Source of the DNA: Candidatus Tepidiaquacella proteinivora | GTDB lineage: Bacteria > Bacteroidota > Ignavibacteria > Tepidaquicellales > Tepidaquicellaceae | Direction of reading: 5' to 3' | NCBI GenBank assembly: GCA_013348845.1 | Contig: CP054675.1 | Coordinates: 496,001-560,000, forward strand | Length of the DNA stretch: 64,000 bases | Shown here: one piece after another, positions 56,814 to 63,159 of the stretch | How positions within the stretch are numbered: the stretch's first letter is position 1 | How the letters are laid out: each line of letters opens with the position of its first letter | Program-made: the position numbers and the translations under genes | Notes under the pieces: generated by a model | Database searches by the model: none | Told to the model about the DNA's origin: nothing | Seen by the model: only the letters and a program-made list of their open reading frames with translations

Positions 56814-57437
56814 ATGGACAATAATAAAAAATATTTTGTCTCTGTTGCTGGTAATATAGGTTCAGGTAAATCATCATTAACGAAGTTAATATCCGAAAAA
56901 TTCGATTGGCTACCATATTATGAATCGGTAAGTGATAATCCATACCTACAGGATTTTTATTCAAATATGAAAAGGTGGTCATTTAATCTGCAGATATATT
57001 TTTTAGCACATAGATTCAATATACATAAAGAAATTTTAAACCAGAAAAAGTCAGTAATTCAGGATAGAAGTATATATGAAGATGTTTATATCTTCGCAAA
57101 AAACTTACACGACATGGGAAGAATGGATGACAGAGATTATGATACATATACAAAATTATTTAATGAGATGGTTTCATATTTAAAACCGCCGGATCTGCTT
57201 ATATACCTTAAATCGAATTTAGAATGTTTATTGAAAAAAATACACCTCAGAGGAAGAGATTTTGAAAAAAATATAGAAACAGATTACCTTAACAATTTGA
57301 ATAAAAGTTATGATGAATGGATAAAATCTTATAATTTAGGAAAGTGTTTAATTATTGAATCGGATTGTATCGATTTCGTAAAATCAAAAGAAGACTTCGA
57401 AAACATAGTCGAATTGATTAAAGAAAATTTAGACTAA
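56814..57437 (+). CDS. Deoxynucleoside kinase (dGK/dAK/dNK family)
   Basis: A 207-aa kinase phosphorylating deoxynucleosides in salvage. P-loop GNIGSGKS is at residues 13-20, followed by YYESVSDNPYLQDFY (catalytic Glu), the DRSIYEDVYIF motif (dNK DRS) and the LID HLRGRDFEKNI. Specificity (dGuo, dAdo, dCyd) cannot be told. It ends the ribosomal-gene transcript, and its stop overlaps that of the convergent response regulator by 4 nt. Confidence 0.93.
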   Translation: MDNNKKYFVSVAGNIGSGKSSLTKLISEKFDWLPYYESVSDNPYLQDFYSNMKRWSFNLQIYFLAHRFNIHKEILNQKKSVIQDRSIYEDVYIFAKNLHDMGRMDDRDYDTYTKLFNEMVSYLKPPDLLIYLKSNLECLLKKIHLRGRDFEKNIETDYLNNLNKSYDEWIKSYNLGKCLIIESDCIDFVKSKEDFENIVELIKENLD

Positions 57438-58795
57438 TCATTTTCTGCCTTTTTAGAGGGGAGCGGTATTTGGTACTTGTTCATTAATTTATATAAATGA
57501 CTTCTTTGAATTTTTAAAGCATCAGCTGTTTGCTTTATATTATATTTATAATCGTTAAGCATTTTAAGTAAAAATATTTTTTCTGATTCATTTTGAAATT
57601 CATTTAATGTCATATTTTTATTAAGAAGTTCAGAAAAATATTTTGTATGCCTCGTATCAGGTATGGAAATATCATCAGCATCAATCACACTTTTTTCAAC
57701 AGTGAACATAAGTCTTTCAATTAAATTTTTTAGTTCTCTAACATTTCCTGGGAATCTGAATCCTATTAATTTTTCAAGGGCGTTGTTTGTCAGAGTTTTC
57801 TCTCTAATATTATAAAGAATCGAAACCTGTTTTATAAAATACTCCGTAAGAGGAGGAATATCTTCTGTCCTTTCTCTTAATGGAGGAATGTTTATTGATA
57901 ATACATTTATCCTATGGAATAAATCCGCACGGAATTGATTTTCCTCAATTAATGCTTCAATATCCTGATTTGTAGAAAAAATAAACCTTGATTTCAAGTC
58001 TATTTCTGAAGATAATCCCGCAGTATTGAATTTTCTTTCTTCTATAACTTTTAGTAATTTTGACTGAACCTCAACAGATAAATTACTTATTTCATCAAAT
58101 AAAACACTCCCCTCTTCCGCATCATGTAATTTACCTTTTGAAATTAATCGGTTGTTTTCATAAACGCCAAATAATTCTTTATCAACATTTTTATCGTCAA
58201 GAATTGCGCAATTTATTGTAATAAAAGGAAAATCACTTCTTGTAGATTTTAAGTGTATTTGTTTTGCAACAAGCATTTTACCTGTTCCACTTTCACCTGT
58301 AATTAAAACATTGAAATCGAGATTTGAATATTTTTGTATTAATTCTCTGACTTTATTAATTTGCTGACTAACACCAATAATCTCTATAGATTGAAGGACT
58401 TCCTCTTTTAATTTCTTAAAAGCATCTTTTGATTTTTTATATTTAAGAGCATTTTTAATTTTAATATCAAGTTCATCAAGACCGAATGGTTTTTGAAGAA
58501 AATCGTAAGCTCCTTTTTTAGTTGATTCCACAGCGGTTTCAATGGTAGCATGACCTGATATCATAATTACAATTAAATCTTTATTAAACTCCATAATTTT
58601 TTCCAACACTTCTATACCATCCATTTTAGGCATTTTTATATCAAGAAATATCAAATCATAATCTTTCTGCCGAATTTTTTTTAAAGCATCCAAGCCATCA
58701 TAACTTGTATCTATTTCAAAATCTTTATCGTTTAGAACCATATTAAATGATTCCACAATATTGATTTCATCATCAACAACTAAAATTCTTTCCAT
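57434..58795 (-). CDS. NtrC-family response regulator lacking the GAFTGA loop
   Basis: A receiver (residues 1-115, phospho-Asp52 in IFLDIKMPKMDG), an AAA+ domain (about 138-360) and a Fis-type helix-turn-helix (IKQTADALKIQRSHLYKLM). ATG at 58795 (MERILVVDD) is preferred; a TTG 12 nt upstream is possible. Walker A GESGTGK is at 167-173 and Walker B LFDE at 232-235. After ELFG (207-210) the normal GAFTGA sigma-54 contact loop is replaced by VYENNRLISK and the stretch is about four residues shorter. It therefore likely does not activate sigma-54 RNA polymerase. No histidine kinase gene is adjacent. The start lies 23 nt inside the upstream desaturase gene. Confidence 0.88.
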   Translation of the reverse strand: MERILVVDDEINIVESFNMVLNDKDFEIDTSYDGLDALKKIRQKDYDLIFLDIKMPKMDGIEVLEKIMEFNKDLIVIMISGHATIETAVESTKKGAYDFLQKPFGLDELDIKIKNALKYKKSKDAFKKLKEEVLQSIEIIGVSQQINKVRELIQKYSNLDFNVLITGESGTGKMLVAKQIHLKSTRSDFPFITINCAILDDKNVDKELFGVYENNRLISKGKLHDAEEGSVLFDEISNLSVEVQSKLLKVIEERKFNTAGLSSEIDLKSRFIFSTNQDIEALIEENQFRADLFHRINVLSINIPPLRERTEDIPPLTEYFIKQVSILYNIREKTLTNNALEKLIGFRFPGNVRELKNLIERLMFTVEKSVIDADDISIPDTRHTKYFSELLNKNMTLNEFQNESEKIFLLKMLNDYKYNIKQTADALKIQRSHLYKLMNKYQIPLPSKKAEND

Positions 58796-60266
58796 ATTTT
58801 TTTGCAATTAATTTAGTAATAATTTTAGCAGATAAAAAGCATAAAGGAATACCACCGCCAGGATGTACATTTCCACCAGTAAAAAATAAATTTTCATAAA
58901 GAGATGATTTATTACCTGGCCTTAAAAATACTGACTTTAATGAATTTGGTGCTATACCATAAATGGAGCCATATTCCGAATTATATTTATTGAGAAAATC
59001 TTCCGGAGTAAAGAATTTGTAAAATAAAATTCTATTCTTAATCTTTATACCATATTTCTCGATACGATCTAAAATAATATTTTTAAATGTTTCAGAAAAT
59101 AAATCAGACCATTTTGTAGTTCCTTCAAGTGTCGGTACATTTACCAGAACAACCCAGTTTTCATATCCAAAAGGAGCGTCTTCAGTATTATTCTTACAAC
59201 TTATAGATATGTATATAGTCATCTCATTTGTTGGAATTTTCTTATTAAAAAGATAATCATATTCTTTATATTCATTCTTTGGAAATAAAACATTATGATG
59301 CTCTAATGTTTCAGTTTTTCCTTTTACTCCCAGAAATAGAAGAAAACGGGAAAGAGACCAATTAAAATCAGTTTCTGAATATAAATATTTAGGGAATAGT
59401 TCCTCGTTATTTGTAAAGTTTGAAACCACAGCTTCAAAATTACTAACCTTATAAGATTCTCTGCTTATGTTATTCTTAAAATATAAATTTACTATTTTGT
59501 TTTTATAATGGTCAATATGAACAAATTCCTGTCCGTAATTAATTTTAATACCCCTTTCATTGCATTCATTATTCAGAAATTCAATCAATCGGTATATTCC
59601 GCCTTTAATAAACCATCCTCCAAAGTTTAAAAACATATAAGGTAAAATAATATAAAACTTTGGAGTTAGAAACGGAGAAGAGCCACTGTATAAAGTAAAT
59701 CTATCTAATACCTGAATTAGTTTGGGTTCTCTTATATATTTTGTAATGAAAGAATGATAGTATTCATTGGTAAAGATTCTTTTAAAATTCCTCAAGCTTG
59801 TCGGGGTGAAATAATTTATCAACTTAAACTCTGTTGATAAAAACTTTTCAAAAACAGTCTTAAATAATTTTTCGGAATATTTATATAATCTCAGGAAATT
59901 TTTATATTCTTTCTCACCAAATTTACTTTCTATTTCATATCCAAGTAATTTTTTATTATTGAAAATTGTGAAATTTGAACCATCTAACCAAAAATATTTA
60001 CATATAATCGGAATAGGAAATAATTCTATATACTCATTAATATTATAATCAATACACTTGAAAAATTTCTCGATTATAAAAGGCATTGTTAATAAAGTTG
60101 CTCCTGTATCAAATCTGAATCCATCTTTTTTAAATTCATTTATTTTTCCTCCTGTTTGTAAATTTTTCTCAAATACCTCCACATCAAAATTTAGTTTAGA
60201 TAATAGAATAGCACTGGATAAACCGCCTAATCCTGCACCTAATATAATTATTCTGTTTGTATTCAT
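58773..60266 (-). CDS. Second CrtI-like phytoene desaturase family oxidoreductase
   Basis: 497 aa. N-terminal FAD site ILGAGLGGLSSAILLS, then GGKINEFKKDGFRFDTGATLLTMP, and a C-terminal FFTGGNVHPGGGIPLCFLSAKI. These mark the carotenoid desaturase family; FDTG-LLTMP resembles CrtD-like members. It overlaps mutS2 by 4 nt and the response regulator by 23 nt, so it is cotranscribed with a DNA-repair gene and a regulator. The paralogue at 30558-32039 is of similar length, but the two differ widely in sequence. Confidence 0.85.
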   Translation of the reverse strand: MNTNRIIILGAGLGGLSSAILLSKLNFDVEVFEKNLQTGGKINEFKKDGFRFDTGATLLTMPFIIEKFFKCIDYNINEYIELFPIPIICKYFWLDGSNFTIFNNKKLLGYEIESKFGEKEYKNFLRLYKYSEKLFKTVFEKFLSTEFKLINYFTPTSLRNFKRIFTNEYYHSFITKYIREPKLIQVLDRFTLYSGSSPFLTPKFYIILPYMFLNFGGWFIKGGIYRLIEFLNNECNERGIKINYGQEFVHIDHYKNKIVNLYFKNNISRESYKVSNFEAVVSNFTNNEELFPKYLYSETDFNWSLSRFLLFLGVKGKTETLEHHNVLFPKNEYKEYDYLFNKKIPTNEMTIYISISCKNNTEDAPFGYENWVVLVNVPTLEGTTKWSDLFSETFKNIILDRIEKYGIKIKNRILFYKFFTPEDFLNKYNSEYGSIYGIAPNSLKSVFLRPGNKSSLYENLFFTGGNVHPGGGIPLCFLSAKIITKLIAKKYGKNFSC

Positions 60267-62632
60267 TGCAGTTCTATAATAGTTATACCTGAATCACCTT
60301 CATTCCAGTTTCCAAATCTAAACGATTTCACATTCTTAGATTTTCTTAATATTTCGTGAACTTTATTTCTTAATTTCCCTGTACCTTTCCCGTGAATGAT
60401 ACGTACTTCCGGTAGATTATGGATTATTGCGTCATTTAAAAACTCTTCAATTTTATTTTCAACTTCATAAGAATACATACCTCTTATATCAAGCTCCATA
60501 TTTACATTACTCAAGAAGCTATAATCAGTAGTACTTACTGAAGGTCTGCTTTTTATGGGTGACTCATCCTTTATCTTTTCTAACTCGGATAGTTTTACTT
60601 TCAATATTAAACCATTTATATCAACTTTAGCATATTCTTTTTCAATTTCTGTAATCACACCTTTTGAGTTAGTATTTTTAATAATTACTTTATCATTTAT
60701 ATTAAAAACTTCATTGCTCCTTTTTTCTTCTGGAATGATATCAGGTACCTGATTAAGAATTTTATTTACCTCTTCTGAAAACTCAGTTTTAATTTTTTTT
60801 ACATTTAATTTCTCTGATTCTTTTATCTCCTTTATTGTATTTTCAATAAGTTTATTTGCATTATTTATTAATTCGTTTGCTTTTTCCTGTGCTTTTTTTA
60901 ATTCCTCTTTTTCCCTTTTCTTTAATTCGTTTATTTTATCTTCATAAAGTTTTATCAAGCCTTCTACTTTTGTATTATTAATATCATATTTTGTTCTCAA
61001 TTTATTATACAATTGTTTTTCCCTTTCAAGATCAAGAATAATGTCATCAAGTTTTATCTGCTCATCTCCGACCAAACTTTTAGCCTTTGTTATTATTTCA
61101 TCGGGAATTTTGTATTTTTTTGCTATCTCAAATGTGAAACTATGACCGGGTACACCCATTACAAAATGGTAATTCGGTGATATCGTTGATACATCAAATT
61201 CAAGTGAAGAATTTTTAATTCTTTGATTTTTCTGCGCTAACACTTTCAATTCCCCAATATGTGTTGTAACAATAGTAAGAGTGTTCTTTTGAGATAAATA
61301 TTCAATTATAGATTCAGCTAATGCACTTCCGGATTTTGGATCAGTACCAGCACAAATCTCATCAATGAGCACAAGAGTATTTTGGTCTGCTTCCTCTAAA
61401 ATTTCCTTTATATGAATTAAATGCGAACTGAAAGAACTAAGATTATGTTCTATTGACTGTTCATCACCTATACTAATAAAAATTTTATTAAAAATTTTAA
61501 ATTTACTATGAGCTTCACAAGGCACAAAAATAGCTTTTTGTAACATAAGTTGAAGAATTCCTACTGTCTTTAGAGCAACTGTTTTCCCACCAGCATTCGG
61601 ACCAGTAATAATAATTGTATTAACATTTTTATCAATCTGAAAATTTAAAGGGACAACATTGTTAATTTTTAATTGTTCAAGAAGTAGTGGATGATATGCA
61701 TTTATTAAATTAATTTCATTATTTGAGAATTCAGGTTTAACAGCATTAATTTCTATAGCATATTTAGCTTTTGCATAAAGAAAATCCAATTCCGATATTA
61801 TTTTCTCATTATTAACAAGGTTAATATAATATTCTGATAATTTACGGGTTAATTCCCTCAAAATTCTTTCTACTTCCCTCTTCTCTTCATATTGTAATTC
61901 AGTTAATTCATTATTCATTTCAATAGTCTCACCGGGTTCTATAAATACAGTAACTCCGGAAGCAGATGTGCTATGTATAATTCCCGGAACTTTTCTTTTA
62001 TTCTCAATTTTAACCGGAATTACTAATCTGCCATCACGAAGAGAAATTATATCATCTCTCACTAAATCCTGGTCAGATACCTGATTTAGAATTCTGTTTA
62101 AGGTTTTTCTTAAATGTTCAGATTTTTTATTTATTTCATTTCTTATTCTTTTCAGATTTACGGAGGCTGAGTCTTTTACCAAGCCATTATCATCTACTGT
62201 AGATTCGATATGATACTCAATAGACTTTTCGTAGAATAATTCATTGGTTAATTTAAATAATAAATTATATCTCTCTTTATTTTCTTTATATGCTGAATAT
62301 ATTTTATTTTTAACATTTTTCACAATTTTTAAAAAATCCAGAACCCATAACAGTTTTTCAGCTGGTATATAATAACCTTCAACATTCATACTACTTAAAA
62401 TCTTTCTTATATCCTTTAAACCCGTAAAATCAATTCCACCTTCAATTAAAATCAAATCTTTCATTTCCTGAACCTTATTCAATTCATAATTCAAATCAGT
62501 TAAATCAGTATAAAAAGGTATTTTATCGCATAAATCTTTCGCAGAATCAGAGTAGCAGAAAGATTTAATTTTATCAAGAATCTTATTAATCTCAAGTTTA
62601 TCTGAAAGATTTTTTAATTGATTATCATTCAT
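60263..62632 (-). CDS. mutS2: Endonuclease MutS2
   Basis: 789 aa. Lacks the mismatch-recognition domain of MutS. The core and clamp region (1-300) precede the ATPase with ITGPNAGGKTVALKTVG, SSFSSHL and LIDEICAGTDP. A coiled linker (Lys/Glu-rich, about 500-640) leads to a C-terminal Smr domain (about 710-789) with LDIRGMYSYE and IIHGKGTGKLR. MutS2 suppresses recombination or senses collided ribosomes. Overlaps with cvpA and the CrtI-like gene suggest translational coupling. Confidence 0.96.
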   Translation of the reverse strand: MNDNQLKNLSDKLEINKILDKIKSFCYSDSAKDLCDKIPFYTDLTDLNYELNKVQEMKDLILIEGGIDFTGLKDIRKILSSMNVEGYYIPAEKLLWVLDFLKIVKNVKNKIYSAYKENKERYNLLFKLTNELFYEKSIEYHIESTVDDNGLVKDSASVNLKRIRNEINKKSEHLRKTLNRILNQVSDQDLVRDDIISLRDGRLVIPVKIENKRKVPGIIHSTSASGVTVFIEPGETIEMNNELTELQYEEKREVERILRELTRKLSEYYINLVNNEKIISELDFLYAKAKYAIEINAVKPEFSNNEINLINAYHPLLLEQLKINNVVPLNFQIDKNVNTIIITGPNAGGKTVALKTVGILQLMLQKAIFVPCEAHSKFKIFNKIFISIGDEQSIEHNLSSFSSHLIHIKEILEEADQNTLVLIDEICAGTDPKSGSALAESIIEYLSQKNTLTIVTTHIGELKVLAQKNQRIKNSSLEFDVSTISPNYHFVMGVPGHSFTFEIAKKYKIPDEIITKAKSLVGDEQIKLDDIILDLEREKQLYNKLRTKYDINNTKVEGLIKLYEDKINELKKREKEELKKAQEKANELINNANKLIENTIKEIKESEKLNVKKIKTEFSEEVNKILNQVPDIIPEEKRSNEVFNINDKVIIKNTNSKGVITEIEKEYAKVDINGLILKVKLSELEKIKDESPIKSRPSVSTTDYSFLSNVNMELDIRGMYSYEVENKIEEFLNDAIIHNLPEVRIIHGKGTGKLRNKVHEILRKSKNVKSFRFGNWNEGDSGITIIELQ

Positions 62633-63159
62633 TTATTAATATTTAAATCCGGAAAGAAAAAATTATTTAAATCCATAAATGACTTTTCTGAACCTGTTAT
62701 ATATACTCTAATTGTTTCATAAACTTTAGGAGCAACATTCACTACATACGGATATGTTATGGATTTATCTTTATCTTGTTGAGTTAATATTTTTGCTGAA
62801 TTTGCAAGTAGAAGCAATATACTTGCAATTAATAGACCTTTTAAAACTCCGAAAGCAAAGCCACCAACTTTATCAACAAATTTTGTAATGAAGTTAAGGT
62901 TAGATATTTTTGAAGCAAAATATAAAGCAATGAGATAAATAATAATAATGATAGCACAAAAGGTAATAATGCTTAAAACTCTTTCATCGTAGTAAAATTT
63001 CTTCAAAGCATATACTAAACCCTGATGAAATCGTGTTGCAATATATAAACCAACAATAATAGCACCTAAAGAGAATATGGATTTTAATAATCCTCTTTTT
63101 AAATTAAGTAGTGCAGGAATCAAAATTAAAATAATTATTATAAAGTCTAAGTAATTCAA
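62629..63159 (-). CDS. CvpA-family membrane protein
   Basis: A 176-aa protein with four membrane helices; the pattern YLDFIIIILILIPALLNLKRG at the N-terminus and KFVDKVGGFAFGVLKGLL in the third helix region are typical of CvpA. Family members are linked to colicin V production in E. coli and to envelope stress tolerance. The gene is directly upstream of mutS2 (4-nt ATGA overlap), the common cvpA-mutS2 order. Confidence 0.9.
   Translation of the reverse strand: MNYLDFIIIILILIPALLNLKRGLLKSIFSLGAIIVGLYIATRFHQGLVYALKKFYYDERVLSIITFCAIIIIIYLIALYFASKISNLNFITKFVDKVGGFAFGVLKGLLIASILLLLANSAKILTQQDKDKSITYPYVVNVAPKVYETIRVYITGSEKSFMDLNNFFFPDLNINK

Follow-up and report, generated by a model that had tools for sequence, protein, structure and literature searches.

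What does a response regulator of the NtrC family do once the loop through which its relatives contact sigma-54 has gone? The question is raised by a gene at 57434..58795 on the minus strand of the window, that is, the whole stretch of 64,000 nucleotides analyzed here. It encodes an NtrX/NtrC-type response regulator of 453 amino acids without GAFTGA, with an ATG start at 58795, a stop codon ending at 57434, and an alternative TTG start at 58807, 12 bases upstream of the ATG. The first-pass annotation had placed the gene at these coordinates and had described an NtrC-like protein in which the receiver, Walker A, Walker B, and Fis-like domain are intact and the sigma-54 contact loop is replaced by a segment about four residues too short, a description that holds in every part.

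The domain architecture, all of it on the minus strand, begins with a receiver domain (PF00072, 58457..58786, Pfam 3.5e-29) carrying the response-regulator set of acidic pair, phospho-Asp, Ser/Thr, and Lys as D8, D9, D52, S80, and K102. It continues with an AAA+ core (PF00158 Sigma54_activat, 57893..58381, 2.8e-44) and a lid domain (PF25601, 1.2e-19) and closes with a Fis-type HTH (PF02954) that scores 19.9 bits, slightly below the cut-off of 22, yet it is the best conserved domain across the orthologues. The AAA+ core residues of bEBPs (Walker A, Walker B, sensors, and Arg fingers) are present, and from sequence and alignment Walker A reads GESGTGK (residues 167-173, 58277..58297) and Walker B reads VLFDE (residues 231-235, 58091..58105). 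The departure lies in L1, where the alignment reveals that ELFG (residues 207-210) is directly followed by VYENNRLISK (residues 211-220, 58136..58165) in place of the GAFTGA loop, with 23 intervening residues up to the Walker-B Asp rather than the canonical 27. In the C-terminal HTH, IQRSHLYKLM (residues 429-438, 57482..57511) is conserved in the alignment, and its Arg is invariant in the window's family (27/27), the sister family (15/15), and the class-level orthologues (9/9). Taking GAFTGA or G[AS]F[TS].A in L1 as the criterion for a sigma-54-dependent bEBP, we found the motif in 0/27 members of the window's family and 0/15 of the sister family, and the regulator thus fits the bEBP architecture without the canonical L1. 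Against the NtrX profile NCBIfam NF051870, it reaches 348.3 bits, below the curated cut-off of 600 and the best score among the 25 families listed.

The first-pass annotation had advised aligning the loop in relatives, a check that comes out in its favor, and had named a sequence correction restoring the loop as a possible refutation. An orthologue (E <= 1e-95) was found in 42 of the 44 genomes of the order searched, the two without a match being G003 (97% complete) and G004 (77% complete), and none of the 42 has G[AS]F[TS].A in its loop. All 27 orthologues of the window's family carry a deletion of 4-5 residues in L1, with an ELFG-to-Walker-B distance of 23 in 17 and of 22 in 10; a same-genus orthologue 80% identical to the regulator has the shortened loop as well. 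A sequencing error or frameshift is ruled out by this shared deletion. In the sister family, the canonical distance of 27 is retained and the loop is substituted at full length in 15/15 orthologues, its sequence being mostly CVEGYLSFSPGKR. Outside the order, a G[AS]F[TS].A-type loop at a distance of 27 is present in 9/9 class-level orthologues, which share the architecture and the HTH core IQRSHLY with the regulator and differ from it in keeping this loop at normal length, and the loop motif at the same distance is found in 77/77 Bacteroidota-type relatives. The nine class-level orthologues counted (L154-L157, L160, L167, L170, L171, and L173, out of 15 class-level rows) were chosen after their loops had been seen and concurrently with the tree, which groups exactly those nine with the orthologues. 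The other six class-level rows and three "par" rows were not counted as orthologues; in the tree, these six, all of which show GAFTGA, fall with the paralogues. Among the Bacteroidota-type relatives (L016-L092), 72/77 have Ser for Gly at position 5, GAFTSA or GSFTSA rather than canonical GAFTGA (37 HEKGAFTSA, 34 HEKGSFTSA, and 1 YEKGAFTSA).

In the phylogenetic analysis, the 42 orthologues form one clade (support 97/92) and each family is supported at 100/100, with Brucella NtrX outside the clade and the class-level and Bacteroidota rows likewise beside it, in a tree that took 17 of the 77 Bacteroidota-type rows and was rooted by midpoint only. Since the loop is near-universal outside the clade, it was lost and not gained. 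The loss of the sigma-54 contact loop is real, old, and clade-wide. It would date to the order's ancestor, and the orphan state probably preceded it, given that class-level loci also show, by eye, no adjacent kinase. The loss is recorded in two states, a substituted full-length loop in the sister family and a deletion in the window's family. A deletion inherited in common with Brucella NtrX is disfavored by the tree and because the sister family has a loop of full length, a judgment tempered by a Brucella branch that is long and deviates in composition. As Brucella NtrX lies outside the order's clade, on this long branch of unsure placement, its own loop loss was probably independent.

The loss cannot be explained by the disappearance of sigma-54. 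The genome (2.40 Mb, a single contig) has one rpoN, which the first-pass annotation had suggested looking for, and the product carries its activator-interacting, core-binding, and DNA-binding domains. Loop loss following rpoN loss is ruled out by the presence of rpoN in 59/59 genomes of relatives. There are 11 Sigma54_activat matches in the genome, including six strong bEBPs, of which the regulator is the lowest scoring; the other five keep the loop as GAFTGA (three), GSFTGA (one), and GAFTDA (one). Sigma-54 itself was thus not lost, considering both rpoN in the relatives and the five loop-bearing activators. The closest paralogue in the genome is 38% identical to the regulator.

The regulator is also an orphan, its kinase presumably encoded elsewhere. 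A ntrY kinase gene is expected in the same locus as ntrX, and in Caulobacter, as passages of PMC10274813 describe, the kinase gene indeed lies in the ntrX locus. A search of the genome for histidine-kinase ATPase domains (HATPase_c) gave 30 matches and placed the one nearest to the regulator 74 kb away; such a domain lies less than 1 kb from 3/5 of the other bEBPs. Separately, some genomes of the family contain a second NtrC-type regulator (L158, L159, and L161) that keeps GAFTGA; upstream of it lies a histidine kinase with a CxxCH (heme-type) motif in its sensor part.

Examination of the gene neighborhood revealed a recurring setting. Immediately upstream on the minus strand, an FAD oxidoreductase gene (PF01593/PF13450, 58773..60266; Amino_oxidase/NAD_binding_8, by eye phytoene-desaturase-like) overlaps the regulator by 23 bases, followed further upstream by a mutS2-type gene (60263..62632, MutS_V and Smr domain matches) and a cvpA-type gene (62629..63159, PF02674 domain match), both on the same strand. 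The mutS2-type gene lies upstream of the regulator on the same strand in 21/21 family loci examined (of 27), and the oxidoreductase stands between the two in 8/21 and is absent at that spot in the rest. In the sister family, a cvpA-type gene is directly upstream in 9/11 loci examined (of 15), the other two beginning at a contig end. Many loci of both families have an rlmB-like methyltransferase gene, named by eye, a short way downstream, and such a gene also adjoins four class-level loci (L154, L156, L157, and L171). No dedicated partner gene adjoins the regulator in the loci examined, and the Bacteroidota-type neighborhoods have no single shared partner. In sister-family loci L143-L153, between one and three genes in tandem come after the regulator; they encode a secreted-looking protein whose C-terminal tail is of the sorting type, a possible target of the regulator.

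Operators were sought in two ways. When the region ahead of the operon's first gene was searched for dyads in 19 loci of the window's family and 9 of the sister family, only AT-rich words near the shuffle maximum came up. GCAn9TGC, proposed as the NtrX binding site in PMC7240162, is not enriched in the window (5 versus 3.84 expected) or in the genome (170 versus 188 for the n10 spacing). With a spacer of n8, 633 matches occur in the genome, an excess attributed to a putative codon-phase effect.

To what extent the remaining parts of the protein are maintained is revealed by conservation. Not one of the 42 orthologues departs from D9, D52, K102, the Walker A Gly/Lys, the Walker B Asp-Glu, the sensor I Asn, the second Arg finger, the sensor II Arg, or the HTH Arg. 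At the D8 position, all 15 sister-family rows have Glu, and exceptions in the window's family comprise Thr for S80 (2/27), Ser for T275 (10/27), Ser at the switch Asn (3/27), and Ile at the first Arg finger (1/27), the last two of which suggest that ATP turnover may differ between members. Overall, the alignment shows that the phosphorylation site and the ATP site are intact and the HTH is conserved, with a short segment that varies freely in place of L1.

The distribution of constraint is inverted, in that the AAA+ core is less conserved than the receiver in the loop-less families and more conserved in loop-bearing relatives. Mean identities in the window's family are 0.78 for the HTH, 0.64 for the receiver, 0.56 for the AAA+ core, and 0.23 for L1, compared with 0.61, 0.51, 0.71, and 0.73, respectively, among the nine class-level orthologues. 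With L1 excluded, the AAA+ core exceeds the receiver in identity in 56/351 pairs of the window's family and 8/105 of the sister family, versus 36/36 class-level, 21/21 loop-bearing paralogue, and 133/136 full-length Bacteroidota-type pairs, counts that are not independent since the pairs share ancestry. In the Bacteroidota-type rows, HTH identity is 0.33, many rows ending before the HTH, and 0.62 with the 17 rows over 440 amino acids. The substituted loop of the sister family is itself conserved, at an identity of 0.77 equal to that of its AAA+ core, and some contact may therefore persist there. Across nine species pairs, pN/pS was 0.045 for the HTH, 0.10 for the receiver, 0.13 for the AAA+ core, 0.15 for the lid, and 0.22 for L1, values that are only relative because synonymous sites are near saturation. 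With the HTH most conserved and L1 least, the gene is maintained, most strongly at its DNA-binding end and least at the former sigma-54 finger.

An AlphaFold2 model built on 21 aligned sequences (mean pLDDT 87.2, pTM 0.60) places two strands, 210-213 and 216-220, where L1 would be (blocks with pLDDT 90 and 86), so that the shortened segment is modeled as a short beta-hairpin. Among PDB structures, the three Brucella NtrX entries match the model best (Foldseek 1.7e-44), followed by sigma-54 activators of the NtrC1/NtrC4 kind. Superposition with Brucella NtrX gave a Z score of 36.5 and an rmsd of 10.2 over 431 residues, and we take the high rmsd to reflect domain arrangement.

With sigma-54 contact lost and with signal input, ATP site, and DNA-binding end kept, the protein has probably been rewired to another form of gene control. 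The reading we favor, and hold to be rather likely, is that of an orphan NtrX-like response regulator that does not remodel sigma-54 RNA polymerase and that would serve as a phosphorylation- and ATP-switched, predicted DNA-binding regulator at promoters of another sigma factor. D52 would be phosphorylated by a kinase encoded elsewhere, altering the ATP-dependent oligomeric state of the AAA+ domain, and this change would in turn switch cooperative binding of the HTH at operators. The bound regulator may then repress or activate promoters read by a sigma factor other than sigma-54, the housekeeping sigma factor being the likeliest, acting by position or contact and not by threading sigma-54. The first-pass interpretation is supported in part, in that the loop is indeed lost; action at housekeeping-sigma promoters is something that we infer from known loop-less relatives. 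Weighing against the favored reading, our searches turned up no target promoter, kinase, or operator, the sister family's substituted loop is conserved, and the switch Asn and first Arg finger vary in a few members of the window's family.

An alternative, which we consider improbable, is that only the receiver and HTH matter at non-sigma-54 promoters, with the AAA+ domain serving as a passive dimerization or spacer unit without an ATP cycle. The lower conservation of the AAA+ core relative to the receiver and HTH would fit this view, as would the report, in portions of PMC10274813, that some loop-less bEBPs act without ATP hydrolysis; however, the Walker A Lys, Walker B Asp-Glu, sensor I Asn, second Arg finger, and sensor II Arg, none of which a spacer would need, are unchanged in every one of the order's orthologues. 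It is quite unlikely that the protein still belongs to the sigma-54 system, either as a loop-less subunit of mixed rings with a GAFTGA paralogue or by competing for shared enhancer sites, and in this way modulates or blocks sigma-54 activation. The genome does keep rpoN and five loop-bearing bEBPs, and nearly all orthologues retain the ATPase residues and both Arg fingers, but at 38% identity even the closest paralogue is distant, no dedicated partner adjoins the gene in the loci examined, and the domain that has relaxed is the AAA+ core, the very site of ring contacts.

We regard as very unlikely a protein that remains a sigma-54 activator by way of a different contact surface, such as loop L2 or the new hairpin. 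An intact AAA+ fold and ATP site, together with the conserved normal-length loop of the sister family, would be expected under it; against this, the replacement segment is the least conserved part of the protein in the window's family, and PMC3162934 reports that activity is lowered or largely abolished when the F and T of GAFTGA are changed. That the gene is decaying or a sequencing artefact may be suggested by a loop that appears damaged when the gene is viewed alone, a reading to which we give almost no credence, as the gene is kept in 42/44 genomes of the order, loop-less in all 42, under purifying selection outside L1.

Returning to the favored regulator of non-sigma-54 promoters, we also put forward, tentatively and as a possibility that may well prove wrong, a stepwise conversion within the order, in which a conserved orphan regulator would have passed from remodeling sigma-54 to regulating another form of RNA polymerase. 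The sister family's loop would have been re-specified at full length and then conserved, and that of the window's family cut to a short hairpin, and the ATP cycle would have been retained to serve another end, for example to switch cooperative binding to DNA or to make contact with the housekeeping sigma factor. One orthologous gene can be traced in three states, with the loop present across the class, rewritten in one family, and deleted in the other. Along this series, constraint moves measurably away from the AAA+ core and toward the receiver and HTH, and the series offers a natural setting in which to ask what role is left to the AAA+ ATP cycle when sigma-54 is no longer remodeled. Moreover, it carries a warning for annotation, as Pfam labels the domain "Sigma-54 interaction domain" at 2.8e-44 despite the missing loop. 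Our literature searches on GAFTGA loss, NtrX, Ignavibacteria, and Bacteroidetes found no account of the order's loop-less clade or of stepwise loss, and these findings extend the loss of sigma-54 contact beyond the proteobacterial and Bacillus examples in the literature surveyed.

Comparison with known systems places the regulator among established company. The closest is Brucella abortus NtrX (PDB 5m7n/5m7o/5m7p), the best PDB sequence match (6.9e-82), which has the same receiver-AAA+-HTH order, likewise lacks GAFTGA, and likewise has 23 residues from ELFG to the Walker-B Asp, counted in the alignment; the two are about 35% identical, and the regulator differs in falling below the NtrX cut-off and in having no adjacent kinase gene. 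Caulobacter NtrX also lacks GAFTGA, as stated in passages of PMC10274813, and in R. sphaeroides, according to PMC7240162, NtrX has binding sites upstream of operons for the cell envelope and may be an activator or a repressor; PMC5892882, on NtrX phosphorylation, leaves GAFTGA unmentioned. The first-pass statement that GAFTGA loss is known in NtrC-family proteins working with sigma-70 is supported by R. capsulatus and Caulobacter NtrC, which, in the same passages of PMC10274813, lack GAFTGA and regulate sigma-70-type promoters. Like the regulator, they are NtrC-family proteins with a deletion over GAFTGA, whereas their deletions are of other sizes (eight residues in Caulobacter) and their genes pair with NtrB, compared with a four-residue deletion in an NtrX-like orphan here. 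More distant parallels are described in excerpts of PMC3162934, which list TyrR, DhaR, HupR, VpsR, and YplP as bEBP homologues with defective GAFTGA, the first three being sigma-70 dependent, among GAFTGA deviations in around 110 homologues recovered there. These five belong to other families or lineages or have other sensory domains than the regulator, and VpsR chains match it at 3.1e-41 only, over the AAA+ part only. Given the alphaproteobacterial NtrX, the R. capsulatus and Caulobacter NtrC, HupR, and TyrR, a loop-less kind of bEBP was already known, and the regulator is a real, clade-wide member of that kind rather than a new one.
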